Origin: Gardnerella massiliensis | GTDB lineage: Bacteria; Actinomycetota; Actinomycetes; Actinomycetales; Bifidobacteriaceae | NCBI RefSeq assembly: GCF_003408845.1 | Contig: NZ_LRTV01000011.1 | Span: forward strand, 1 to 64,000 | Reading direction: 5' to 3' | Length of the DNA: 64,000 nucleotides | In this document: positions 3,589-59,867 of the stretch, piece after piece | Numbering within the stretch: the stretch's first letter is position 1 | Layout: each line of letters begins with the position of its first letter | Made by a program: the position numbers and the translations under genes | Notes under the pieces: model-generated | What the model saw: only the letters and a program-made list of their open reading frames with translations | Databases searched by the model: none | Told to the model about the DNA's origin: nothing

Positions 3589-4290
3589 TTACTCCACAAT
3601 CAGCTTATATCCTAAGCCTTTAACTGTTATTAAAGAAACAGGCTGCGATGGATTGAGTTCTATTTTTTCTCTGATACGACGTATATGTGCCATTAAAGCA
3701 TTTTCATATCCAAAAGGATTAGCTCCCCATGTAGCTTCACATAACGCGTCAATTGTTACAATGCATCCAGCATTTCTATAAAGTGCAGAAAGTAAATCAT
3801 ATTCTTTGGCTGTGAGTGGAATATGTTCGTTATTTTTTATTACTTGGGCAGAAGAAAAATCAATCTGACTATTTTTCAGTTTAACAATGGGATTTTCGCT
3901 CTTGTAGCTTCGTCTTAAAATTGCCATAATGCGAAACGTTAGCTCTTTTGGAAGAAACGGCTTTACAATATAATCGTCTGCTCCTAAGTCAAATCCCTTA
4001 AACTTATCTTCATCTTCACCGCAAGCAGTAAGGAATAAAATAGGACAATCACTATATTGTTTTATCTGCTTCATTAGCTCAAACCCATTACCGTCGGGGA
4101 GCATAACATCAAGGATTGCTAATTCTGGACGCAATTTTTGTGTTGCCTCTACTGCATCTTTTATACTTTTTGCAGTCGTTATATTATAAAAACCGTATTC
4201 GTTTAATATGGATACAACCATATCTAGAAGTTCCTGCTCATCATCAACAAGTAGCAGATGCTTGTTCAATAAATAATCATTCCGATTCAT
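3589..4290 (-). CDS. OmpR-family response regulator
   Basis: A 233-residue response regulator with an N-terminal receiver domain (acidic pocket DDE, phospho-acceptor Asp in AILDVMLPDG, Lys in IVKPF) and a C-terminal winged helix (LTAKEYDLLSAL...GLGYKL). I start it at 4290, giving the usual length of about 230 residues. The longer frame to 4437 overlaps the divergent promoter region. It is the first gene of the operon with the kinase and is divergent from the ABC exporter, with 139 bp between them. It probably binds the paired repeats in that gap. Confidence 0.9.
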   Translation of the reverse strand: MNRNDYLLNKHLLLVDDEQELLDMVVSILNEYGFYNITTAKSIKDAVEATQKLRPELAILDVMLPDGNGFELMKQIKQYSDCPILFLTACGEDEDKFKGFDLGADDYIVKPFLPKELTFRIMAILRRSYKSENPIVKLKNSQIDFSSAQVIKNNEHIPLTAKEYDLLSALYRNAGCIVTIDALCEATWGANPFGYENALMAHIRRIREKIELNPSQPVSLITVKGLGYKLIVE

Positions 4291-4429: not shown

Positions 4430-5194
4430 ATGAACAATATTGTTACAACAGAACATTTAACAAAAAAATATAAGTCATTTATTGCTGTTAATGATGTTTC
4501 ACTTCATATTCGCAAAGGTAGCATTTACGGCTTTCTTGGGCCAAATGGAGCTGGAAAATCTACAACAATGAAAATGCTCCTAGGGCTTACGGCTCCAACA
4601 AAAGGTGTATTTACAATAGACGGAAAGCAGTTTCCTGCCGATCGCATACCTATTTTGAAAGAAATAGGCTCATTTATTGAATCACCATCTTTCTATGCAA
4701 ATCTAACAGGTAGAGAAAATCTTGACATTATACGTCGCATTTTAGAACTACCTAAGAGTGCAGTTGATGACGCATTAGAATTAGTGGGTCTTTCTGAGTT
4801 TGCAGACCGTCTTGCAAAAAAATATTCGCTTGGCATGAAGCAAAGGCTTGGTCTTGCTGGAGCATTGCTTGGTAGACCACCTATTTTGATTTTAGATGAG
4901 CCAACAAATGGACTCGATCCATCTGGCATACATGAAATCCGAAATCTGATTAAGTCACTGCCAGATCTTTACGATTGCACGATTCTTATTTCTTCTCATA
5001 TGCTATCCGAAATTGAGCTTATTGCAGATGATATTGGAATACTTAATCACGGACACTTGTTATTTGAAGGTAGTTTAGATGAACTACGACAGCATGCATT
5101 ACGATCTGGTTTTGCTTCCGACAATTTGGAAGATATGTTCCTATCCATGATTGATGAAGACAATAAGATCAGGAAGCAGAGTGCAAGACTATGA
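4430..5194 (+). CDS. ABC exporter ATPase, lantibiotic-protection type (LanF-like)
   Basis: A 254-residue ATP-binding subunit. It has Walker A GPNGAGKST (near residue 40), a Q-loop region, signature YSLGMKQRLG, Walker B LILDEPTNGLD and a switch His in ISSHMLSE. The sequence style (FIESPSFYANLTGRENL, then GLDPSGIHEIR) matches the LanF/MutF/CprA group, which expels lantibiotics from the membrane. The start follows GAAAGGAG. Its stop overlaps the next start by 4 bp (ATGA), so the three exporter genes are translationally coupled. Confidence 0.9.
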   Translation: MNNIVTTEHLTKKYKSFIAVNDVSLHIRKGSIYGFLGPNGAGKSTTMKMLLGLTAPTKGVFTIDGKQFPADRIPILKEIGSFIESPSFYANLTGRENLDIIRRILELPKSAVDDALELVGLSEFADRLAKKYSLGMKQRLGLAGALLGRPPILILDEPTNGLDPSGIHEIRNLIKSLPDLYDCTILISSHMLSEIELIADDIGILNHGHLLFEGSLDELRQHALRSGFASDNLEDMFLSMIDEDNKIRKQSARL

Positions 5195-38989: not shown

Positions 38990-40225
38990 TTACTTGTTAG
39001 TAAATACTTCAGTAAACGAGTATTCTTTACCGCCTCTTAAAACTTTCACACTCTTATCATTTCCAACCTGCTCAATATAACGTTTCACAATCACGTCACA
39101 ATATTTCTCGTCAAGCTCGATAGCGTAGCAGATTCTACCCGTCTGCTCGCAGGCTATAAGCGTGCTACCACTTCCAGCAAACGGATCTAACACAAGCGAA
39201 TTCGTCATACTCGAGTTTTTAATCGGATACGCTAAAAGAGCTATTGGTTTCATGGTTGGATGATCAGCGTTTTTCTTAGACTTTTCAAACTCCCAAACTG
39301 AAGTTTCTTTCCTACCCGCATACCACTTGTGTTTACCTTTTTTCTTCCACCCATACAAACACGGCTCATGCTGCCACTGGTAAGGGCTTCTACCCAACAC
39401 CAGAGACGGTTTCTTCCAAATACAACAACCTGAAAGATAAAACCCCGCGTCCTGGAATGCTTTTCTAAAATTCAAACCCTCCGTGTCAGCATGAAACACG
39501 TAGATAGACGCATCATCTGCCATCGCCTGCTCCATGTTCACGAACGAGTTGAAAAGAAACTGGTAAAACTTATCATCCTCCATATTATCGTTTTTAATTT
39601 TCCCAGCAGCACCCTCATAGTTCACGTTATAAGGCGGATCAGTAACCACCAGATTCACTTTAGTATCCTCAAGAAGCGTCTTAAATGTTTCTAACTTAGT
39701 AGCATCACCGCAAATAACACGATGCTTACCAAGCGTCCACATGTCACCCGTTTTAGAAAAACACGGTTCTTCCAGCTCTTTTTCAACATCAAAATCGTCT
39801 TCGTTTACGTCTTTATCAGCATCAAAAATACTGGAAAGCTCCGCCTCGTCAAACCCGAGAAGATCAAGGTTAAAATCAGCTCCTTCAAGCTCCGACAACT
39901 CGACTGCTAATAGTTCATTGTCCCATCCTGCGTTAAGTGAAAGCTTATTATCCGCAATAATATAAGCACGCTTTTGTGTTTCAGTTAAATGATTTTCCTT
40001 CACACACGGAACTTTTTTAAGACCCAATTTTTGCGCCGCGGCAAGCCTGCCATGCCCCGCGAGAATCGTATTATCCTCCGCCACTAGAATCGGGGAAAGA
40101 AAACCAAACTCGCGAATACTTGCCGCTATCTGAGATACTTGCGCCTCAGAGTGCGTGCGAGCGTTTCTCACATACGGGATAAGCTCACTTACGTCAGCCA
40201 GATAATACTGCATTTCTTTTTCCAT
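38990..40225 (-). CDS. ParB-domain DNA methyltransferase (N4/N6-type)
   Basis: A protein of about 411 residues with an N-terminal ParB/Spo0J-like domain (VSELIPYVRNARTHSEAQ, ILAGHGRLAAAQKLG). A beta-class amino-methyltransferase follows: motif IV DPPYNVNYEG near residue 200 and motif I DPFAGSGSTL near residue 365. It transfers a methyl group from SAM to A or C in DNA. This fusion is common in phages and probably protects the genome from restriction or marks packaging sites. The SAM synthetase gene lies directly upstream. The ATG at 40225 follows GGGAGGAAAG. Confidence 0.9.
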   Translation of the reverse strand: MEKEMQYYLADVSELIPYVRNARTHSEAQVSQIAASIREFGFLSPILVAEDNTILAGHGRLAAAQKLGLKKVPCVKENHLTETQKRAYIIADNKLSLNAGWDNELLAVELSELEGADFNLDLLGFDEAELSSIFDADKDVNEDDFDVEKELEEPCFSKTGDMWTLGKHRVICGDATKLETFKTLLEDTKVNLVVTDPPYNVNYEGAAGKIKNDNMEDDKFYQFLFNSFVNMEQAMADDASIYVFHADTEGLNFRKAFQDAGFYLSGCCIWKKPSLVLGRSPYQWQHEPCLYGWKKKGKHKWYAGRKETSVWEFEKSKKNADHPTMKPIALLAYPIKNSSMTNSLVLDPFAGSGSTLIACEQTGRICYAIELDEKYCDVIVKRYIEQVGNDKSVKVLRGGKEYSFTEVFTNK

Positions 40226-40239
40226 AATCTTTCCTCCCG

Positions 40240-41025
40240 TTAGAAAAGACCCCAGCAAGCCAGCTTTTCAAAACCACCCACCGAGTCAATATAATCTTTC
40301 GCAATTTTCACAATCTGCGAATACGGTTTACCATCAACCATTTCATCCCCGATAGCACAAGAAAACTCAACCACCCGGCCGGTTTCCTGCGCTTTCAAAA
40401 ACGCGTAAATATTAACCGACACGTCAGCTTTCGTAAGATCTTTACCATGAAGGCCGCCGCCTGTAACAGCATCAGCCATGTCTGACCCGAGTTTTCGGTT
40501 AACCGCTCCCGTATCCACGTTGATACCACCCGTCCAGTCGCCTAAAGGATTAACAAACGCTGTCGGATAGTCTTTCAATAAGTCTTCTCGTTTAGCGTGA
40601 GACTGGCAGATGATAAGCTTTTCACCATCAAGAACATACTTGCCGTCATACGGATACTTTTCATAAACCTTTCGAGCAATAGTAGAAAGCTTCTTCTGCT
40701 CGCCTGTTAGTGGTACGCCTTTAAAAATCCCATTATCAGCGCAACGAACCATACCATCCTGGTTTCGGCTTAAATGCTTATCCTGCGGCACAACCGTAAT
40801 ATCAATCTTTACTTTCCCAGGGCTTAAACGGTGGATAATATTTTTAATATCCTTAAACTTAAACATCACCGTGCTTTCAATAAACACGGCACACTTACCA
40901 TGCCCAAGCATCACCTCAACAGCAATCTTCGGATTCTCATCAATCTTGTAAGCCAGATCAACAATTGCTCCAGCAATACGATCCGCAATCTTGTCAACAT
41001 GCGACGGGTTTACTTTTTCTATCAT
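40240..41025 (-). CDS. metK: Phage S-adenosylmethionine synthetase, short form
   Basis: A 261-residue MetK homologue. It has HVDKIADRIAGAIVD (start domain), a short nucleotide region, NPLGDWTGGINVDTGAVNRK and GGGLHGKDLTKADVSV, matching the Gly-rich and metal-binding loops of MetK. Cellular MetK is about 390 residues, so about a third is missing or compacted. It could make SAM for the adjacent methyltransferase. Whether the short form is active cannot be told here. The gene ends 14 bp before the methyltransferase start. Confidence 0.75.
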   Translation of the reverse strand: MIEKVNPSHVDKIADRIAGAIVDLAYKIDENPKIAVEVMLGHGKCAVFIESTVMFKFKDIKNIIHRLSPGKVKIDITVVPQDKHLSRNQDGMVRCADNGIFKGVPLTGEQKKLSTIARKVYEKYPYDGKYVLDGEKLIICQSHAKREDLLKDYPTAFVNPLGDWTGGINVDTGAVNRKLGSDMADAVTGGGLHGKDLTKADVSVNIYAFLKAQETGRVVEFSCAIGDEMVDGKPYSQIVKIAKDYIDSVGGFEKLACWGLF

Positions 41026-42689: not shown

Positions 42690-45128
42690 TTATTTTGATT
42701 TTGCCAGCAAATAATGAGCCATAGCAATACAGCATGCATCTCGTTCTTCATCAGTTGATTCGCCAGCAAGCCGTGCCAGCAATCCAAATCCTAGAATTTT
42801 TTCCAGACATCCATACATTTTTGCCTTAATAGAATTTTCCAGTGCTTTAAATGAACTGAAATCTAACCCATCTTGAGCATAAGCAGTATATCTCTTTTGA
42901 GCAGTAATACTACTATAATAAGTTGTCATCATATCGCTTAAAGTATGCAAATTTTCATCACTAGCATTACGTAGATTCATTCCTAAATAGATAGCGTCTG
43001 CATCATCACAAAAATCTGTAAAATTGCAGCGAATACCAAGTTTATTACTGACATGATTTGCTTTAAAATACTCCGACTGTGCACTACTGTCTGAACCAAT
43101 AAGAGCATATGCTGTTTTCATACGATCAAGAGATGGATACTTTTGCAGGTACTTATGTAAGTCATCCATGCCTGTTGCAAGATCTCCTGCCCAACCAGTC
43201 CAATGATCTGGAGCTAAATTAGAATAAGCATAACAATAAAGCGTATAAGCAAAGTGTGCTATATCGTTTTTACCACCACTTATATCAGCAACTTCGTCAC
43301 GCTTATTACCAATATAAGTATCCAGCTTATCTTTTAATGCAGGATATTCTTTTTCCATGAATATTATGAAAAATGGGTCTGCAAACGCGCCAGCAATAGC
43401 AAATTTCCAATTCGTCATATATGCCTTAGCTAGATAATTAATCACACCTTGAGTCACGCTTAAAGGATGATACTCTAGAACCACCGCATACTTTTGATAT
43501 ACTTTTCGCCATTTATCATACACGCTTTCTAATTGTTGAATGAGGTCTATCACTTTTTCAATTTTTGTTAAACGAGACGTATCTGGATTAGGTGGAGCGA
43601 CATAAGTAATCTTTGATTGTGGATTGCCAGTTGAATGATTTACACTTCCAACCGCTCCAAAACGTCCAGAATATGCTACTCTGTCAAGATCCCATTTACC
43701 TTTATAGCCAGGGATTTCATGGAACTGATCAAACGCCCAATTACTTGGAATAGAAAAGCCTAGATTTCCACTAAAACCTGTAGACATATCAGACACAAAT
43801 GATGCTACCGCATATCCTGCTTTACTAACACGAGTACAAATATTTCTAGATGCATAAATTCCAATCCGATAACCACCATGCATATTTTCTTTAACAGCTT
43901 TGAAGTACGGCAAAATATTGCTACTAATTTCCGGATTCGTTGCATCATAATCAACCGCAAAATAGATTACTGTTGGCGGAACTCCAAGACGTTTAGCTGA
44001 AGCAACCGCTTCTTTTGCATGACGAGCTCCATTTTCTGCTGTAAAATGACGTAATTCAGTTGAATACTCTTGAAAAATAGGGAAATATTGAAGACCGTGG
44101 CTCACAATTCTTTCCAATTCTCCAGTACGCAATGCCTTAAAATAGTCCTTTTCAGCAGTGTTTTTTTGATCAGGTTCACTCAAATAACGACCAACAATCC
44201 TATAACCATCAGCCTTCAAACACTCAGCAAACTCGTCAGTAATCTCAAAACGTGTATCACACGCTACACAAGAACGATTAGGATCACCTTTCGAAGTTAA
44301 AAGGCTCATCCATGTTGTTGGATCAACCTTACCTGTAACAGGAATAACATGCTCTGCTTGGAACTTATACAATGCCGACACTATTGCATTATTCCATGTT
44401 GAAGTTGGCGTAAGCGAATACCCATTACATGTGAGCGCTACGCTTGCCAACCAAACCCACTCACTCGTTCCCTCACTAATTGTCTTTAAACGTGATCGTG
44501 TGCCATTACCAAAATTGCCAGTAGCCTCAGCTGGAGTAAACCCTTCAACAGCTTGTAACACTTGAATCAATGCTGTATTCATCTCACGACCATACAGACC
44601 GTCTGTTGGAATAATTCCAGTATAATTCTTATATTTACTGTTAACAGCCTGCTGTGTTACACGAATGTCTTCTTTGCCTCCATACAACGATAACAATTTG
44701 AATTGTTTCATTGATAAAAGAACCATCATTAGTTCTAGATCCACAGTAGATGAAATATCTGAAAGACCAATATCACTTTTAAGATCAGAAATAGAGTTTG
44801 CTACATTATATGTAAATTCTTCTGTTATGCCTCCATATTCAGCCTCATACCCTTTGCACCAAAGAGCACCCTGAATAATTCCATGAATATTATTACTTTC
44901 ATCTGTCTGATCAATACCATTTGGCCAGCGCTTCTTAAATCGTGACTGAGTACCTTTCCCAAAATTATTTGCCGTTTCTGTTATACCAAGCTCAATCTGC
45001 AAAGCACGAATAAGCCCATTAATTGTATCCCAACCAGTATTCCCATCAGTAATAACTGAACCAAACCCAGGCTTATCACCATAGGTTTTGTTTAACCATT
45101 GCTGTGTTAGTAATACCATCTGATCCAT
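42690..45128 (-). CDS. DUF1906 glycoside-hydrolase-like protein with peptidoglycan-binding repeats
   Basis: An 812-residue protein. The first 290 residues contain peptidoglycan-binding-like repeats (LTQQWLNKTYGDKPG..., VTQQAVNSKYKNYTG...). Residues of about 300-500 form a GH25-like TIM barrel of the DUF1906 type (RIVGRYLSEPDQKNTAEKDY, PTVIYFAVDYDATNP). The last 280 residues are an uncharacterised helical region. It has no signal peptide or membrane segment. It would act on cell wall after release or export. It is placed with its own terminators in the middle of the packaging/replication genes, so it is probably a lysogenic-conversion cargo. Confidence 0.8.
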   Translation of the reverse strand: MDQMVLLTQQWLNKTYGDKPGFGSVITDGNTGWDTINGLIRALQIELGITETANNFGKGTQSRFKKRWPNGIDQTDESNNIHGIIQGALWCKGYEAEYGGITEEFTYNVANSISDLKSDIGLSDISSTVDLELMMVLLSMKQFKLLSLYGGKEDIRVTQQAVNSKYKNYTGIIPTDGLYGREMNTALIQVLQAVEGFTPAEATGNFGNGTRSRLKTISEGTSEWVWLASVALTCNGYSLTPTSTWNNAIVSALYKFQAEHVIPVTGKVDPTTWMSLLTSKGDPNRSCVACDTRFEITDEFAECLKADGYRIVGRYLSEPDQKNTAEKDYFKALRTGELERIVSHGLQYFPIFQEYSTELRHFTAENGARHAKEAVASAKRLGVPPTVIYFAVDYDATNPEISSNILPYFKAVKENMHGGYRIGIYASRNICTRVSKAGYAVASFVSDMSTGFSGNLGFSIPSNWAFDQFHEIPGYKGKWDLDRVAYSGRFGAVGSVNHSTGNPQSKITYVAPPNPDTSRLTKIEKVIDLIQQLESVYDKWRKVYQKYAVVLEYHPLSVTQGVINYLAKAYMTNWKFAIAGAFADPFFIIFMEKEYPALKDKLDTYIGNKRDEVADISGGKNDIAHFAYTLYCYAYSNLAPDHWTGWAGDLATGMDDLHKYLQKYPSLDRMKTAYALIGSDSSAQSEYFKANHVSNKLGIRCNFTDFCDDADAIYLGMNLRNASDENLHTLSDMMTTYYSSITAQKRYTAYAQDGLDFSSFKALENSIKAKMYGCLEKILGFGLLARLAGESTDEERDACCIAMAHYLLAKSK

Positions 45129-50810: not shown

Positions 50811-53714
50811 TTAATCTTTTTTGTAAAACTCGCACTCGTAGCCGTCAGCTCGTAAAAGAAGCCCTTCTGCCCAAGGTGGTGTTCTTCCCATTAGCTCACA
50901 CACGCTTTGAACACTCACGCTTTTATCAGTTTCGATAATGGCTTCATCATGCACGTGAGCAACGATGCGATATTCTTTCAACGTTTGCATGGCGTAAAGT
51001 AGAATGTCACGAGCTATAGCTTGCGTAATATTTTCCACAAATTTAGGCCCATAACTTTCCAGCCGCTCCCATTTTTTAGTAGACCCCACACCCTCATAGG
51101 TGACTGATTCGCCACCATACTTGTTTTCTTCCACGCGTGGCTTCACATAGTAAAGGCATCTTTTCGAAGGCAGTTTGATGATAAGAAACCCACTCTTGTA
51201 AGTGAACACTATATTGTGTGTTCGAACAGAAATGCGTTCGTGTACACACTGTTTTACAGCTCTGTCCACATCCCACCACAATGAAACAATATGTGGATTA
51301 GCAGATCTCCAATCATTAACTAACTGTTGCAAATCATCTTCATGTAAACCCATATCAAGAGCACCCATTGCCTTTAATGCTCCTACTGCACCACCGTAGC
51401 CACAGTTATGCACGAGCTTTCCCGATACGGTAAAACGATGATTTGGTCCGGCATTTCGTATGTCATAAACTCGAGCCTTGCTTCGATTAAACGCCAGTTT
51501 TTTCTGTGTTGCACTACAGCTGTATTTGCTCTTGATATGATTTCTTCTCTGCCCATTCCTTTCGATAGCATTCTTGTAACTACCGATCTTGCGTATGGCC
51601 AATATTGTTGCTCCCACCGTGTTAGGATAGCGTTCTGCTTGTTGTTTTGATTGACTATTCTTGGAACAAAGCGGATATTTCCTTTTTCGTAGTTGCCGTT
51701 TGTATTTATCCGATCTAATTCCCAGTCTTTTTGCACATTGTCTACCTCTTGTAAAATCCACAAGCCTGCTTCTAAAACAGAATGGAAGCACCACTTTATC
51801 CCTCTTGCACCATAGTTTTTGTAATTTGGATCTCTTGGATTGATGCATCGCTGTTTTGCAGCACTTAGCCGCTTTTCTAACCATATTGGTATTTGTTTCG
51901 GCTGTGAGCAAGCTTGACACCCTTTTGATTTGCCCGACTTTAGACTGTTTAAGTCCTGCCATTGGACACTTCCGCACCCTACGCATTGTGTCAGTACATA
52001 ACAGTGGTTTTGCTTTTGATTCCAGTGTTTCTCTGCACTTATGATTTTCACCCAGCCGTATTGTTCTCCGACCATCTCCGGTTTGTATGAGATGTGTTTT
52101 GCAGATGGCGGATTCAATAAACCGTATTGGCTTCGGTTTCCCTTTAACCCAGACGAGATGGTCTGGTGTTGCTCTAAGTCCTTCATACTCGATTACCTCC
52201 TTTACACCCTTAAAAACAACTCCGTTATGGTTGACCCAGTTTTCTCCGTCCCACACTTTTTGTTTTGTAGTGACTTCTTCAATTGGAACAAGCCCTTCAT
52301 CTGTGAGTACAAGTTCACCTTCAGCAATACAAGCGAGTTCCGCGATCTTACCTTTCTGCCGCAGGTGCCCGTTTACTCCGTGTTTTTCAACAGGCACGCT
52401 AAACATTTGAGATGCTGACGAGCAGTAAATGTCTTTACCCTCCGCGAATACTCGCATACGCCATTTTTCACCCGCAAGCCAAGCCAAGACTCTCGCTTCG
52501 ATTGCTGAAAAGTCTGCGACAATAAACTTAAATCCCGTGCGTGGAATAAAAGCAGTGCGGATAAGCTGGGATAAAGTATCCGGAATATCCTCATAAAGCA
52601 TTTCCAACGCTTCAACGTTTCCTTGTTTAACAAGACTTCTAGCCTCAGCTAGATCAGACAGATGGTTTTGTGGTAGGTTTTGTAATTGCACGAGCCTTCC
52701 TGCGAATCTTCCTGTACGGTTTGCACCATAGAAGCGAAACATGCCACGCTCCCGATAATCCATGCAAGCAGCGTTTTTCATCGCCGTATACTTTTTCACC
52801 GAAGATTTAGCAAGCTGCTGGCGAAGCCGTAAAACTTCAGCCAACTCTTTACCCACTGTTTTAAGCTCTTTAGCGACTTCTTTTTTACCAAGCGACTCCA
52901 TTTCAAGCCCATGCTCTTTAAGCCAAGAGCGCATTTGTAACACGGAGTTCGGGTTTTCTAAACCTGTAACATGCTTAAGCTCATCCACGAGATGAGTTTT
53001 CACCTCTTGGTCGAGTTTTATGGCTGATTCAACGAAAAGAGGATCTATTTCAATCCCACGGTCGTTTATCTGTTGGTCGAGATAAAACTCCTGCCATAAA
53101 AAGTCTGGCACGGGAAAGCGTGAGAGCTTTTCTTGAATACTCATTTCAACTTCCACATCACGCTTGTTATACGATTTAAACAGATCCCACTTTTCCTTAT
53201 CGTGAAAATACTTGTTTCTTGTTCTTCCACCGTTTACTTTCGTAGGATTACACGGCAGGCAGAAATATTTAATAAGATTCTTACCCTCAGTAAGTTTCTG
53301 CTTATCAAGACCCAATACTGCTCCCACGCTTTCCAAAGACATGGGTAGCCCCAGTGTGGCTGACCAGATCATTGTGCAATGCCAGGAGCTTGGGTTTAAA
53401 AACAAGCTTTCACTTTTCACTGTTTGACCAGGGTTAACATTGATGCCTTTATCTCGCAGGTAGCGTGATAAGCAGACTCTTTCAAACTGAGCGTTAAACG
53501 CCCACTTGGTCACTGTTTCATCTGTTAAAGCAGAAAGCACAACATCCGGTATGGTTTCACCTTGTGCTAAATCAACGACCTGAACTTCACTACCGTCCAC
53601 ACTGTAACCAAAGAGCAGTATCTCAAAATCATCCGATTCTGCGTACTTGTAAACACCACATTTACCAAGATTCACACTCGAAAACGTCTCCAAATCCACA
53701 CTCAAATTTTCCAA
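50811..53714 (-). CDS. DNA polymerase I (family A) with an in-frame intein
   Basis: A 967-residue precursor. Residues 1-461 and 771-967 form a 658-residue phage family A polymerase. The 3'-5' exonuclease region has DLETFSSV and KRDVEVEM. Motif A is DFSAIEARVLAWL. Motif B is GHLRQKGKIAELAC, broken at its last Cys by the intein (residues 462-770). It resumes CGYGGAVGALKAMG, and motif C is HVHDEAIIE. Excision must occur for activity because motif B carries the dNTP-binding Lys/Tyr face. It is the core of the replication operon. A shifted-frame gene for a homing endonuclease lies inside the intein. Confidence 0.9.
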   Translation of the reverse strand: MENLSVDLETFSSVNLGKCGVYKYAESDDFEILLFGYSVDGSEVQVVDLAQGETIPDVVLSALTDETVTKWAFNAQFERVCLSRYLRDKGINVNPGQTVKSESLFLNPSSWHCTMIWSATLGLPMSLESVGAVLGLDKQKLTEGKNLIKYFCLPCNPTKVNGGRTRNKYFHDKEKWDLFKSYNKRDVEVEMSIQEKLSRFPVPDFLWQEFYLDQQINDRGIEIDPLFVESAIKLDQEVKTHLVDELKHVTGLENPNSVLQMRSWLKEHGLEMESLGKKEVAKELKTVGKELAEVLRLRQQLAKSSVKKYTAMKNAACMDYRERGMFRFYGANRTGRFAGRLVQLQNLPQNHLSDLAEARSLVKQGNVEALEMLYEDIPDTLSQLIRTAFIPRTGFKFIVADFSAIEARVLAWLAGEKWRMRVFAEGKDIYCSSASQMFSVPVEKHGVNGHLRQKGKIAELACIAEGELVLTDEGLVPIEEVTTKQKVWDGENWVNHNGVVFKGVKEVIEYEGLRATPDHLVWVKGKPKPIRFIESAICKTHLIQTGDGRRTIRLGENHKCRETLESKAKPLLCTDTMRRVRKCPMAGLKQSKVGQIKRVSSLLTAETNTNMVRKAAKCCKTAMHQSKRSKLQKLWCKRDKVVLPFCFRSRLVDFTRGRQCAKRLGIRSDKYKRQLRKRKYPLCSKNSQSKQQAERYPNTVGATILAIRKIGSYKNAIERNGQRRNHIKSKYSCSATQKKLAFNRSKARVYDIRNAGPNHRFTVSGKLVHNCGYGGAVGALKAMGALDMGLHEDDLQQLVNDWRSANPHIVSLWWDVDRAVKQCVHERISVRTHNIVFTYKSGFLIIKLPSKRCLYYVKPRVEENKYGGESVTYEGVGSTKKWERLESYGPKFVENITQAIARDILLYAMQTLKEYRIVAHVHDEAIIETDKSVSVQSVCELMGRTPPWAEGLLLRADGYECEFYKKD
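51383..52186 (-). CDS. HNH/AP2-type homing endonuclease encoded out of frame inside the intein
   Basis: A 267-residue protein on the same strand as the polymerase but in the +1 frame. It has cysteine pairs (CVGCGSVQW, GCQACSQ) and the AP2/HNH-homing core: LSAAKQRCINPRDPNYKNYG, ARGIKWCF, ELDRINTNGNYEKGNIRFVP. AAAGGAGGTAATCGAGTATG gives a perfect ribosome site and start within intein block B. It ends 22 bp inside the polymerase C-terminal coding part. It would cleave intein-less polymerase genes to spread the intein. Expression from its own ribosome site is inference. Confidence 0.85.
   Translation of the reverse strand: MKDLEQHQTISSGLKGNRSQYGLLNPPSAKHISYKPEMVGEQYGWVKIISAEKHWNQKQNHCYVLTQCVGCGSVQWQDLNSLKSGKSKGCQACSQPKQIPIWLEKRLSAAKQRCINPRDPNYKNYGARGIKWCFHSVLEAGLWILQEVDNVQKDWELDRINTNGNYEKGNIRFVPRIVNQNNKQNAILTRWEQQYWPYARSVVTRMLSKGMGREEIISRANTAVVQHRKNWRLIEARLEFMTYEMPDQIIVLPYRESSCITVATVVQ
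51405..52331 (-). mobile_element. Intein in polymerase motif B (309 residues)
   Basis: The intein starts with Cys of CIAEGELVLTDEGLVPIEEV (block A) and has block B RATPDHLVWVKGKPKPI. It ends with block F-like ARVYDIRNAGPNHRFTVSG and block G KLVHN, followed by the +1 Cys. All required splice residues are present: Cys1, TxxH, His-Asn and Cys+1. Between them about 200 residues are Lys/Arg/Cys-rich and featureless in this frame, because that DNA encodes the homing endonuclease in the +1 frame. Confidence 0.9.
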
Positions 53715-57612: not shown

Positions 57613-57676
57613 AAGAGCAGGGTGTTTTACTATTGTAAAGATGCATAGTATGCCTTCTTATCGAGAAAGAGATATT

Positions 57677-58408
57677 ATGAAAAATATAATAATGCGAAGT
57701 CTATCTGTAGTTGTTTCTGCTGCTTGTTTATTTACTTTTTCCCCATTGGCATTTGGACAAGATAATAATGAGAATTATCAGCAAAGACTGGGGGATATAT
57801 CAACTTATCTGAATCACACACTCAGTGAAAAAGAAATTGATGAGCAGATAAAGGAGACCTCGCGTCGCACTGGTGAGAGCCCTGACTCGATTGCTAGTAG
57901 GGTGGAGAAATCGGTTCGTGATTCAGTGTTAGATACTGCGAGGTTCTCTGTAAGAAGTGGGAATACACAGTTACCAAGAGCTCGTCATACAGGAGATATT
58001 TTTGTTTCTAATAATTCATCATTTTTCGTTTGGAAGCATGGGCATACTGGAATTTATGTTAATCGTGATGATATTGTCGAAGCAGTAGGGATGTTCCAGA
58101 ATGCTCATCGAGTATCAAGGAAAAATAGTGTCGCAGCCGGCGGTGCCTCTATTCTTGAAGTAAAAACTTCCCAGGGAAACCGCGATAAAGCGGCGCGTCG
58201 GGCAATTGGTTATATTGGTAGGGGTTACAATCCAGATATTACTGATACTAATAGAAATGATTGGGGAGGTCTTAACTGTTCTCAATTAGTGTGGGCTGCA
58301 TATTATTATGGTGCTGGTATTGATTTGGATACTGGTAGTGGTGAATATGTGTGGCCATATGATATTAAAAATTCTGGATATGTTAGGGAATATCAATATG
58401 TTCAGTAG
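57677..58408 (+). CDS. Secreted permuted papain-like hydrolase (YiiX/YaeF type)
   Basis: A 243-residue protein with a signal peptide (MKNIIMRSLSVVVSAACL, cut after a site near FSPLAFG). The catalytic domain has His before Cys, the permuted order of NlpC/P60 relatives: RARHTGDIFV, KHGHTGIYV and, near the end, GLNCSQLVWAAYYYG. Members are amidases or hydrolases acting on lipid or peptide linkages at the cell surface. ATG at 57677 gives the signal peptide; an upstream ATG at 57641 lacks a ribosome site. It forms an operon with the next gene. Confidence 0.8.
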   Translation: MKNIIMRSLSVVVSAACLFTFSPLAFGQDNNENYQQRLGDISTYLNHTLSEKEIDEQIKETSRRTGESPDSIASRVEKSVRDSVLDTARFSVRSGNTQLPRARHTGDIFVSNNSSFFVWKHGHTGIYVNRDDIVEAVGMFQNAHRVSRKNSVAAGGASILEVKTSQGNRDKAARRAIGYIGRGYNPDITDTNRNDWGGLNCSQLVWAAYYYGAGIDLDTGSGEYVWPYDIKNSGYVREYQYVQ

Positions 58409-58424: not shown

Positions 58425-59867
58425 ATGTGGAAAAAATTTATTCATGAATCTGAAGCTCACAAGAGAGTGAATGATGATTATGTGCGTAATGCTGCACCTC
58501 AATCTTCATTCACAACTGGGAATAAAACTCATAGAGTAGTAGTCTGGATTTTCGGGGTTATAGGTATAATTGCTGTAATTGCAGCCGTTACTGTAGGTGC
58601 CTTTCATTGGGTTTTATCGACAGAATATACAGTATCTGCTCATTCGGAGAAATTTGAAAATCTTCGGTTGCAGCATGCGGTTGTTGCAATCCCGCTGCAT
58701 AACCCTCAGACATCTCTTATTCCCAATGGCAACGCATTTATGTCAATTGTTTATGAAGATGGCAGTTTTAAGCTGCATAAGGTGAGCAATATAGAAGGCC
58801 AAACGCCAATTTGGAATACTGAGGCGCTTCACTATACAGATTCCCGTGATAGTTATTTCATACCAGTGAACGCTGGAAAACCTACGGTAAACTCTATAGA
58901 AAAGGTGCAACGTCAGAATTTTGCATTTTCTCTTGCTAATAGCGGTTTTGTTGATTTGTATGACGAAAGCATGATGAAGCATAGAGGTAAAACAACATAT
59001 AAGATTCTTTCTACGACTGCTAAAGGTGAGAGTAAGCAGCAAACAATACAATTTTCAGAGAGTCTGTTTATTAAAACTTGTTCTACCTGTGGTAATCAAG
59101 CGTATGCAATTGCTCAAACAGACAAGCATGAAGTTGTATTGTATCGTATGGTCAATGAAGCAAATGTTGGCCTAAATGAGGTATCGCGGCACCATGAAAA
59201 AGACATGGTGGGTGAGCAATTATATCAAGGAGAAAATGAATCTACAGGAGTAATTGATGCTGCTTATAGCCCACGATGCAACAATGGTGTGATTACTTTC
59301 TTATATTCGTATGGTCCATCATCTGCTCGCACAAAGGATATGGCAGTAGAACACAGCGATTCTGCTGATGATGTTAAAGCTATTCAGGAACATTTTCTTG
59401 TGCGATGGGATGTGAAAACTGGTAAAATAACAACAATTCCATTGAAGAACAGCAAAGGTCAAGTGTTGTATGGTCCGACCACAGTCTCTTATGAGATTGC
59501 TGGCTACATAAACGCACAGGCATACGATGAAAAGCTTCTTCATATTGTTGATACCGAGAATGGACGAGTGTTTACTCTTGATACGCAAACAGGTGTTCTT
59601 CGCCGATTGTTAGATAAAACTACGCGTCAAGAGTCGTCAGCGGGCGTCAACTATCGTTTGCTGGTAGGAAACCATGAAATAGTTCGTATACCATCGATTA
59701 TCGATACCTCTGATTTGAAAGATTTTGTTATCGAACGATTTGATAGGAAGACTGGAAAATTATTGAAAAAAATAAAAGTTAATAAAGATTTTCTCTATTT
59801 GACAGCTCAGAAAAATACGAATTTATATCCGGGAATTCCAGCTGTGAATCCAAAATGGTTGCAATGA
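58425..59867 (+). CDS. Single-pass membrane protein with extracellular beta-propeller-like domain
   Basis: A 480-residue protein. The cytoplasmic start (residues 1-45) is followed by one membrane helix (VVVWIFGVIGIIAVIAAVT) and a large outer region. There, short repeated strands such as FMSIVYEDGSFKLHKVS, FLVRWDVKTGKITTIPL, RVFTLDTQTGVLRRL and FVIERFDRKTGKLLK suggest a propeller fold. It follows the hydrolase by 17 bp with GAGGTG. Role unknown; possibly a surface partner of the hydrolase. Confidence 0.65.
   Translation: MWKKFIHESEAHKRVNDDYVRNAAPQSSFTTGNKTHRVVVWIFGVIGIIAVIAAVTVGAFHWVLSTEYTVSAHSEKFENLRLQHAVVAIPLHNPQTSLIPNGNAFMSIVYEDGSFKLHKVSNIEGQTPIWNTEALHYTDSRDSYFIPVNAGKPTVNSIEKVQRQNFAFSLANSGFVDLYDESMMKHRGKTTYKILSTTAKGESKQQTIQFSESLFIKTCSTCGNQAYAIAQTDKHEVVLYRMVNEANVGLNEVSRHHEKDMVGEQLYQGENESTGVIDAAYSPRCNNGVITFLYSYGPSSARTKDMAVEHSDSADDVKAIQEHFLVRWDVKTGKITTIPLKNSKGQVLYGPTTVSYEIAGYINAQAYDEKLLHIVDTENGRVFTLDTQTGVLRRLLDKTTRQESSAGVNYRLLVGNHEIVRIPSIIDTSDLKDFVIERFDRKTGKLLKKIKVNKDFLYLTAQKNTNLYPGIPAVNPKWLQ

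Follow-up and report, generated by a model that had tools for sequence, protein, structure and literature searches.

An HNH-type homing endonuclease gene nested out of frame in a DNA polymerase intein of Gardnerella massiliensis

In ordinary full inteins, a LAGLIDADG or HNH endonuclease is encoded in frame and forms a domain of the spliced protein. Group I introns may nest an independent open reading frame (ORF) that constitutes a homing endonuclease gene (HEG). Fractured genes, reportedly described by Dassa and colleagues in 2009, are said to contain inteins split into two halves, between which lies a free-standing endonuclease gene. This work concerns a 64,000 nt stretch of DNA from Gardnerella massiliensis (RefSeq assembly GCF_003408845.1, contig NZ_LRTV01000011.1, positions 1 to 64,000), hereafter called the window, in which an intein of a family A DNA polymerase gene and an HNH-type HEG occupy overlapping frames of the same strand. 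The best explanation, to which a probability of about 0.87 is assigned, is a mobile intein whose splicing and homing tasks are coded by the two overlapping frames.

The locus shares features with each of these systems. As in ordinary full inteins, a splicing domain and a mobility nuclease are combined in one element, and the nuclease is placed between the splicing halves. Unlike in those inteins, the nuclease is a separate ORF in the +1 frame, as a preliminary description of the window, made from its sequence alone, had pointed out. Because the endonuclease does not share the frame of the splicing halves, the element was not filed as a standard full intein. An independent HEG ORF inside a splicing element resembles the arrangement in group I introns, but with a protein intein as host, the second frame has to be open to translation too. 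As in fractured genes, the nuclease would be translated apart from the splicing halves, and one related contig described below has the fractured layout itself. The host ORF of the window runs uninterrupted across the intein halves, in contrast to the broken one of a fractured gene with a split intein. For this reason, splicing in cis is possible.

Out-of-frame HNH insertions in phage methylases, namely the ShiLan domain and Pacc40 gp60, are reported in PMC11855218 (Arsenault, Gosselin and Gogarten 2025). In the accessible parts of that article, these insertions have no intein or intron support and no detectable ribosome-binding site, and the extra residues are thought to remain in the methylase as a loop. 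The window resembles these cases in its out-of-frame HNH gene, open host frame and homing-like distribution. It differs from ShiLan, as presented in those parts, in that the HNH gene is surrounded by intein motifs and has a Shine-Dalgarno (SD) sequence and an ATG. For overlapping frames in actinobacteriophages, the article cites a preprint (bioRxiv 10.1101/2025.01.02.630785; Gosselin, Arsenault and Gogarten) and a second reference. The preprint, known by its title, deals with actinobacteriophage inteins of 'non-canonical architecture'; it may describe related inteins, and priority for the general idea may lie with it. Inteins and homing endonucleases in jerseyviruses are treated in PMC8425127, with no shifted frame in the passages available, and PMC6293099 concerns, as far as its available text goes, an ordinary intein. 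Among the titles and abstract beginnings covered by the literature search, a nuclease in another frame was found only in PMC11855218, where the host is not an intein. The preliminary description had known of no well-described case. The layout is nevertheless not unique, since it recurs in other phages, at other sites and in other genes, and since the accessible parts of PMC11855218 contain a related out-of-frame HNH gene without an intein. It is a real, recurrent and little-described intein architecture.

Anatomy of the intein and the nested gene

A phage replication module lies on the minus strand of the window, and the polymerase ORF on this strand (Table 1) matched Pfam DNA_pol_A (1.1e-16) and phrog_17 DNA polymerase (1.8e-132). 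Its frame carries the marks of a class 1 intein, i.e. Cys1, a block B TxxH motif, a terminal His-Asn and a Cys, Ser or Thr at position +1. The complete intein of 309 amino acids (AA) proposed earlier was recovered with Cys1, ATPDH, HN and the +1 Cys all in place. In an AlphaFold2 (AF2) model of the intein, block means of the predicted local distance difference test (pLDDT) are 79-95 through residue 90 and 84-93 in the C half (280-309), while the 183 residues from 97 to 279, between the two confident halves (1-96 and 280-309), have values below 50. A Foldseek search of the PDB with this model returned inteins as the top matches, with a probability of 1.00 and E-values of 3.7e-3 or weaker, and the predicted model thus has a Hint fold. 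In an alignment of relatives (A3), conservation is found in both halves but not in the middle; residues 97-279 are probably disordered filler. The extein is uninterrupted at the insertion point in relatives with empty alleles (L218, L219, L224). Sequence profiles gave weak PHROG matches for the N half only (phrog_26005, 2.4e-11; phrog_93 endonuclease, 2.6e-4), and no Pfam match to the intein frame between the halves in the window. Since such profiles are an aid and not a definition, membership was kept on motifs, fold and empty sites. By these marks, the element is a class 1 intein, and its splicing is predicted.

The same-strand ORF of 267 codons, shifted by one base, was found as proposed, together with all the motif strings cited for it and an SD sequence suitably spaced from its ATG inside intein coding sequence. 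The gene had been placed wholly within the intein, which is nearly correct: it starts 145 nt inside the intein, while its last codons and stop extend 22 nt into the C-extein. The product matched phrog_374 HNH (5.2e-24), phrog_3377 (4.1e-16) and phrog_8790, and the latter two matches support the HNH-type core. Its AF2 model has a mean pLDDT of 78. Among viral structures (BFVD), the model had 35 matches at E-values of at most 0.001, several of them named HNH endonuclease; the neighbours with a family name are mostly HNH and in a few cases AP2. Neither Pfam, for AP2 or any other model, nor NCBIfam matched the HEG of the window. The HNH label was assigned because of the PHROG matches, weak matches of Pfam HNH_3 to 6 of 38 HEG relatives and the viral structure neighbours. 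The earlier AP2/HNH assignment was therefore kept in its HNH part, while AP2 was dropped as a family label. In an alignment of 38 HEG sequences (A2), the HNH-type core columns are invariant, and so are the four cysteines in 38 of 38 sequences, which may form a zinc knuckle. By family, the HEG product is an HNH-type nuclease, for which cleavage is predicted. Its nearest named records are from the Gardnerella phage vB_Gva_AB1 (99.3 % identity) and Gardnerella vaginalis KA00225 (99 %), from which we infer that the element belongs to a Gardnerella prophage.

According to the explanation preferred here, the polymerase frame would provide two splicing halves and a long, probably disordered linker, and excision would leave an intact polymerase. 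The +1 frame, with its own ribosome-binding site and ATG in the N-terminal half, would yield a separate HNH-type homing endonuclease of 267 residues. The target of this nuclease would be polymerase genes that lack the intein, cleaved near motif B, and repair of the break would transfer the intein together with the nuclease gene and a short 3' flank. A likely origin is that a free-standing nuclease gene invaded the loop of a mini-intein out of frame, with only those insertions and variants surviving that left the intein frame without stops. In keeping with such survival, the nuclease gene avoids all codon pairs that put a stop in the polymerase frame.

Table 1. Positions of the polymerase, intein and HEG features in the window
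Feature	Position	Strand	Details
Family A DNA polymerase precursor ORF, including the intein	50811..53714	-	967 codons, TTG start
N-extein	52332..53714	-	ends ...LRQKGKIAELA at the insertion point; basis includes empty alleles L218, L219, L224
Whole intein	51405..52331	-	309 AA, polymerase AA 462-770
Intein N-terminal splicing half	52044..52331	-	residues 1-96: Cys1, block A, block B ATPDH
Intein filler, unconserved	51495..52043	-	residues 97-279; also codes for the HEG core, read in the +1 frame
Intein C-terminal splicing half	51405..51494	-	residues 280-309, VYDIRNAGPNHRFTVSGKLVHN, +1 Cys
C-extein	50811..51404	-	phrog_10285 DNA polymerase match, residues 770-967
Nested HNH-type HEG	51383..52186	-	267 codons, ATG, frame +1 relative to the polymerase
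HEG SD sequence AAAGGAGGT	52195..52203	-	inside intein coding sequence; gap of 9 nt from GGAGG to ATG
Putative HEG zinc knuckle, four Cys	51908..51985	-	C68, C71, C90, C93
HEG HNH-type core	51632..51814	-	YGARGI ... ELDRINTNGNYEKGNIRF ... N
Probable co-conversion tract	51285..51404	-	first ~120 nt of the C-extein

Two overlapping frames under different selection

Relatives were gathered by searches with the HEG protein and hence without regard to whether the polymerase frame was open; in two of these searches, one of two search peptides lies where the HEG overlaps the C-terminal splicing motif. The searches recovered conserved homologues of the +1 ORF. The stop count covered 94 loci including the window and no more than 255 HEG codons in each. 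The polymerase frame is stop-free across the HEG in 93 loci, the exception being L094 with an aberrant 5' side, the HEG frame is stop-free in 80, and both are open in 79, while the third frame contains 5-27 stops (23 in the window). For the alignment by HEG codons, 91 loci were used and reduced to 49 representatives with less than 92 % nucleotide identity. Seven near-identical viral loci (L009-L015) are represented by L009 alone in the stop count and the alignment, and the partial matches L006, L022, L023, L025, L074-L080 and L111-L114 lie outside the alignment. Some contigs recur under several labels (L127 equals L200, L214 is the contig of L108, and L245 and L250 are those of L138 and L139).

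Across a core of 191 codons, the intein frame has no stop in any of the 49 lineages, whereas shuffling of synonymous HEG codons within genes leads to an expectation of 463.9. For the third frame, 583 stops were counted in the same lineages compared to 556.3 expected. For the window alone, shuffles of the core contain 7.1 intein-frame stops on average, and none of 2000 was stop-free. A HEG codon with final T precedes AA, AG or GA at 0 of 2770 such places, in contrast to 1809 of 6546 other places. The intein frame is thus open far beyond chance, as had been suspected from the window. On the stop counts, the synonymous shuffles and the selection estimates given below, chance openness was rejected.

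Another candidate is a sequencing or assembly frameshift that moved an ordinary in-frame intein nuclease to another frame; a sequencing error of this kind was one of three refutations named in the preliminary description, none of which held. Nothing in the window supports such a frameshift, and the only point in its favour is one old record, SS3e (L121), in which the polymerase is annotated as three ORFs and the intein start and the HEG share a frame. The same offset is found in 49 distinct lineages from isolates, metagenome-assembled genomes and viral contigs, and the intein has a constant length of 309 AA in 65 of the 80 loci with a matched N junction; the relatives refute such an error, whose remaining probability is negligible. 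As a separate observation, the usual HEG stop is lost in G044 (L027/L242/L244), where the HEG frame extends to 691-693 codons, with no indel in the stretch aligned through the polymerase.

The two frames are constrained in different ways along their overlap. Variability peaks at the polymerase wobble position in HEG codons 1-30 and at the HEG wobble position in codons 31-230, whereas all three positions are restrained in the final HEG codons. Ratios of nonsynonymous to synonymous change (omega) were obtained from 23 matched close pairs as counting estimates with a fixed transition weight and not from a likelihood model; some of these loci have HEG stops and several sets are near-identical, so that the pairs are not fully independent. 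In the core, omega of the HEG is 0.16 when the changes counted alter the polymerase frame as well and 0.19 when they leave it as it is, while the corresponding intein-frame values are 1.17 and 1.38. In this region, the rate of changes creating intein-frame stops is 0.056 times that of other such changes. The three differences behind this value were taken as an effect of scoring changes one at a time, because the core of every representative is free of intein-frame stops. Within the N overlap, constraint on both frames is moderate (omega 0.56 for the HEG, 0.41 for the intein), and within the C overlap it is strong (0.16 and 0.27). HEG residues are therefore under purifying selection, as the check proposed for the +1 ORF had called for, whereas the intein frame in the core is neutral in its residues yet kept open. 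Selection acts on both frames, and they form an overlapping, dual-coding pair. The dual constraint suggested earlier applies to residues at the two ends of the overlap but not in the core, where the intein frame need only stay open.

Intein length was determined for the 80 loci mentioned above, while 24 of 104 loci were missed by the junction pattern and omitted. Mini-inteins of 124-168 AA, in which most of the HEG is gone and the polymerase frame is kept, occur in L006, L023, L080, L075, L076, L077, L079 and L114, although the titles of L006 and L080 name one Streptococcus porci strain, to which L023 also seems to belong. The deletions lie mainly, but not exactly, within the unconserved stretch of alignment A3. 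Other loci, e.g. L004, L033 and L194, combine a stopped HEG with an open intein. This decay of the HEG while the intein stays open is as expected for a required host gene and a dispensable nuclease. Alternatively, the HEG could be a dead passenger whose open frames are a relic or due to chance, which would fit the deletions in several relatives and the one or two HEG-frame stops in 14 of the 94 loci. This alternative was rejected as very improbable on the stop counts, the shuffles and the HEG omega of 0.16; the invariant Cys and HNH-type columns and the presence or absence of the element at its site among closely related prophages also argue against it.

At the start codon position, the 49 representatives have ATG in 41 cases, ACG in 6, ATC in one and GGA in one (the 5'-aberrant L094). 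Codon choice in the polymerase frame was compared at this position by Fisher tests. The codon contributing the AT of the ATG is TAT in 42 cases and TAC in 6, compared to 298 and 319 in upstream polymerase codons, and the Glu codon within the SD sequence is GAG in 33 and GAA in 9, compared to 585 and 759 upstream. Synonymous resampling from the same genes was applied to 47 loci (L072 and L094 left out) with 500 simulations. The mean SD match is 5.47 compared to 4.61 after resampling, with none of the 500 simulations as high, and ATG is present in 40 of 47 loci compared to a resampled mean of 22 and maximum of 32; these statistics treat loci without correction for relatedness. Alternatively, the nuclease could be made without its own ATG, fused by a frameshift to the N-terminal portion of polymerase and intein. 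The polymerase frame enters the HEG region free of stops in 93 of 94 loci, so that a ribosome could shift there, and the ATG is missing from its usual place in 8 of the 49 lineages. The observed SD match and ATG frequency favour internal initiation, and the fusion is considered improbable.

Several observations weigh against a functional intein with a nested, separately translated nuclease. Pfam did not match the window intein, no intein family matched any of 46 members either, and a search of PDB sequences with the intein profile returned no match. For the HEG, a profile search of PDB sequences was equally without a match, and the fold search of the PDB gave no meaningful hit (best E-value 0.88). 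The predicted template modelling score of the HEG model is only 0.53, and HNH_3 reached an E-value of 0.0026 at best in just the six relatives mentioned above. Besides the 14 loci with HEG-frame stops, L040 has an intein-frame stop just upstream of the HEG, and in several loci, e.g. L016, L017, L028 and L068, the polymerase ORF comprises only 652-670 codons owing to an interruption on the N-extein side. The eight lineages without ATG at the usual place suggest that some HEGs are decaying or start elsewhere. Separately, the open polymerase frame spans 465-670 codons in L016, L017, L028, L040 and L068, and the intein frame across the HEG is still open in them; their interruption upstream of the HEG may be an error or a real fission.

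Mobility and recurrence of the nested layout

The HEG was found in 2 of 61 genomes of the genus. Polymerase N-exteins with at least 98 % identity occur in three of these genomes, i.e. the window, G044, which also has the HEG, and G031, which has an empty site reading GKIAELA-LGYGG. Window and G031 are 94.5 % identical over 1300 nt upstream, up to the junction. Downstream, identity drops to 57-73 % per 30-nt bin in the first 120 nt and returns to 94.1 % at 180-590 nt. The divergent tract is thus one-sided, lying on the 3' side only, and includes the +1 residue, which is Cys with the intein and Leu without it. Such a tract is probably what co-conversion during homing would leave. Against this, it could also stem from ordinary recombination. 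Empty sites are also present in the Streptococcus phages phiNJ3 and Javan40, while Corynebacterium phage Troy (L220) and Acutalibacter phage Fontainebleau (L221) did not match the junction pattern used in the empty-site check.

It could be argued that the intein was removed from G031 through recombination with a phage that had none, in which case the divergent tract would mark that exchange and the window would not have gained the intein by homing. The tract of about 120 nt lies downstream only, and two alleles give no direction. The occurrence of the HEG in only 2 of 61 genomes and its relatives at 51-66 % identity, mostly in Firmicutes genomes, suit spread, and the difference in the +1 residue also argues against loss, which is regarded as rather unlikely.

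Nested HEGs were also found at other insertion sites. In jerseyviruses (L008, L115) and EP23-like phages (L007, L120), a polymerase intein at RQIGKA-C contains a HEG in the other shifted frame; the HEG of L008 and that of the window are 34 % identical over 168 aligned positions. Caulobacter phage RLK and APSE-2 carry an intein at a third polymerase site with the HEG in the +1 frame, and the RLK HEG is 29 % identical to that of the window over 115 positions. In searches with these HEGs, 38 of 95 loci were nested, open in the host frame and mostly in the HEG frame. Insertions were also identified at two further sites in the polymerase (L211, L212) and at one site in a helicase (L138, L139), with L138 matching phrog_62 DNA helicase (5.7e-100). 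By flanking motifs alone, both intein motifs were present in 30 loci, of which 29 are open through, and seven nested loci of the RQIGKA type were missed by the motif pattern. In a comparison of nested and non-nested relatives, the label 'nested' itself used openness, and the independent control is therefore the group of 36 non-nested relatives alone, which includes the split locus L131 described below; 556 stops were counted in the same relative frame compared to 585 expected, and none is open. A further search gave 39 loci, of which 25 were examined and 21 are nested at the helicase site, several of them near-identical, while the other 14 lie on contigs already included. Phage helicase inteins with an out-of-frame HNH gene are thus seen in L138, L139 and L245-L265, phrog_62 having been tested for L138. 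L116, L119 and L122, candidates for nested relatives beside other genes, were rejected, as their annotation or frames show short overlaps only.

In addition to the three-ORF annotation of SS3e, the jerseyvirus Ent2 record describes its polymerase intein as 'encoding splicing domains' and lacks a nuclease annotation. The helicase of the same phage (L115:5125-6507) has an annotated intein with a LAGLIDADG nuclease in frame, and it lies near the polymerase intein and the out-of-frame HNH gene therein, so that one phage contains both architectures.

In a tree of 84 HEGs, the first two polymerase sites (sites 1 and 2) and the two further polymerase sites fall on one side of a branch with support of 100/98, and the third polymerase site and the helicase site fall on the other side, among free-standing genes. 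The tree covers 17 of the 49 site-1 lineages and is midpoint-rooted with unsettled bootstrap, and its free-standing rows come mainly from one query. This distribution fits at least two entries of HEGs into inteins.

L131 (1884-4857) comprises three cistrons. The polymerase with the N-terminal intein half (IntN) ends with a stop at 3938, the overlapping HEG starts with GTG at 3920 and stops at 4556-4558, and an ATG at 4555 starts an ORF with the C-terminal intein half (IntC) and the polymerase C-terminus, so that this ORF is coupled to the HEG through ATGA. In the HEG tree, L131 lies inside the nested group of the third site, and a search with its HEG found that contig alone. The arrangement, seen in this one contig, resembles a fractured gene whose split intein has a nuclease between its halves and would splice in trans. 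This placement suggests that the nested state could be an intermediate towards the split layout, with an unrooted direction of change. A broader and tentative reading, doubtful but possible, is that nested-frame inteins form a distinct, widespread class that arises repeatedly when free-standing HNH genes enter mini-intein loops out of frame and, with the nuclease released from the splicing protein, represents the missing step to natural split inteins. Under this reading, with a nuclease that has its own start, a stop in the filler would cost little if the halves still associate, which would lead to a fractured layout as in L131.

Neighbouring genes and implications

Several other genes of the window were recorded. 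An ORF at 38990-40258 joins a ParB N-terminal domain with an N6/N4 DNA methylase. An ORF of 812 AA (42690-45128) combines an Rv2525c-like glycoside hydrolase domain with a peptidoglycan-binding domain and probably encodes a prophage endolysin. Two plus-strand ORFs beside the prophage replication module, at 57641-58408 (255 AA) and 58425-59867 (480 AA), had no Pfam match.

The nested layout indicates that overlapping frames can encode an intein and its homing nuclease as separate proteins, and it suggests how a nuclease is carried without burdening the splicing protein. Intein annotation should change in response, as illustrated by the jerseyvirus record that names 'splicing domains' only. The locus also provides a natural experiment on overlapping genes, in which one frame is constrained for its sequence and the other for openness only, and it offers a testable route from cis-splicing to split inteins.

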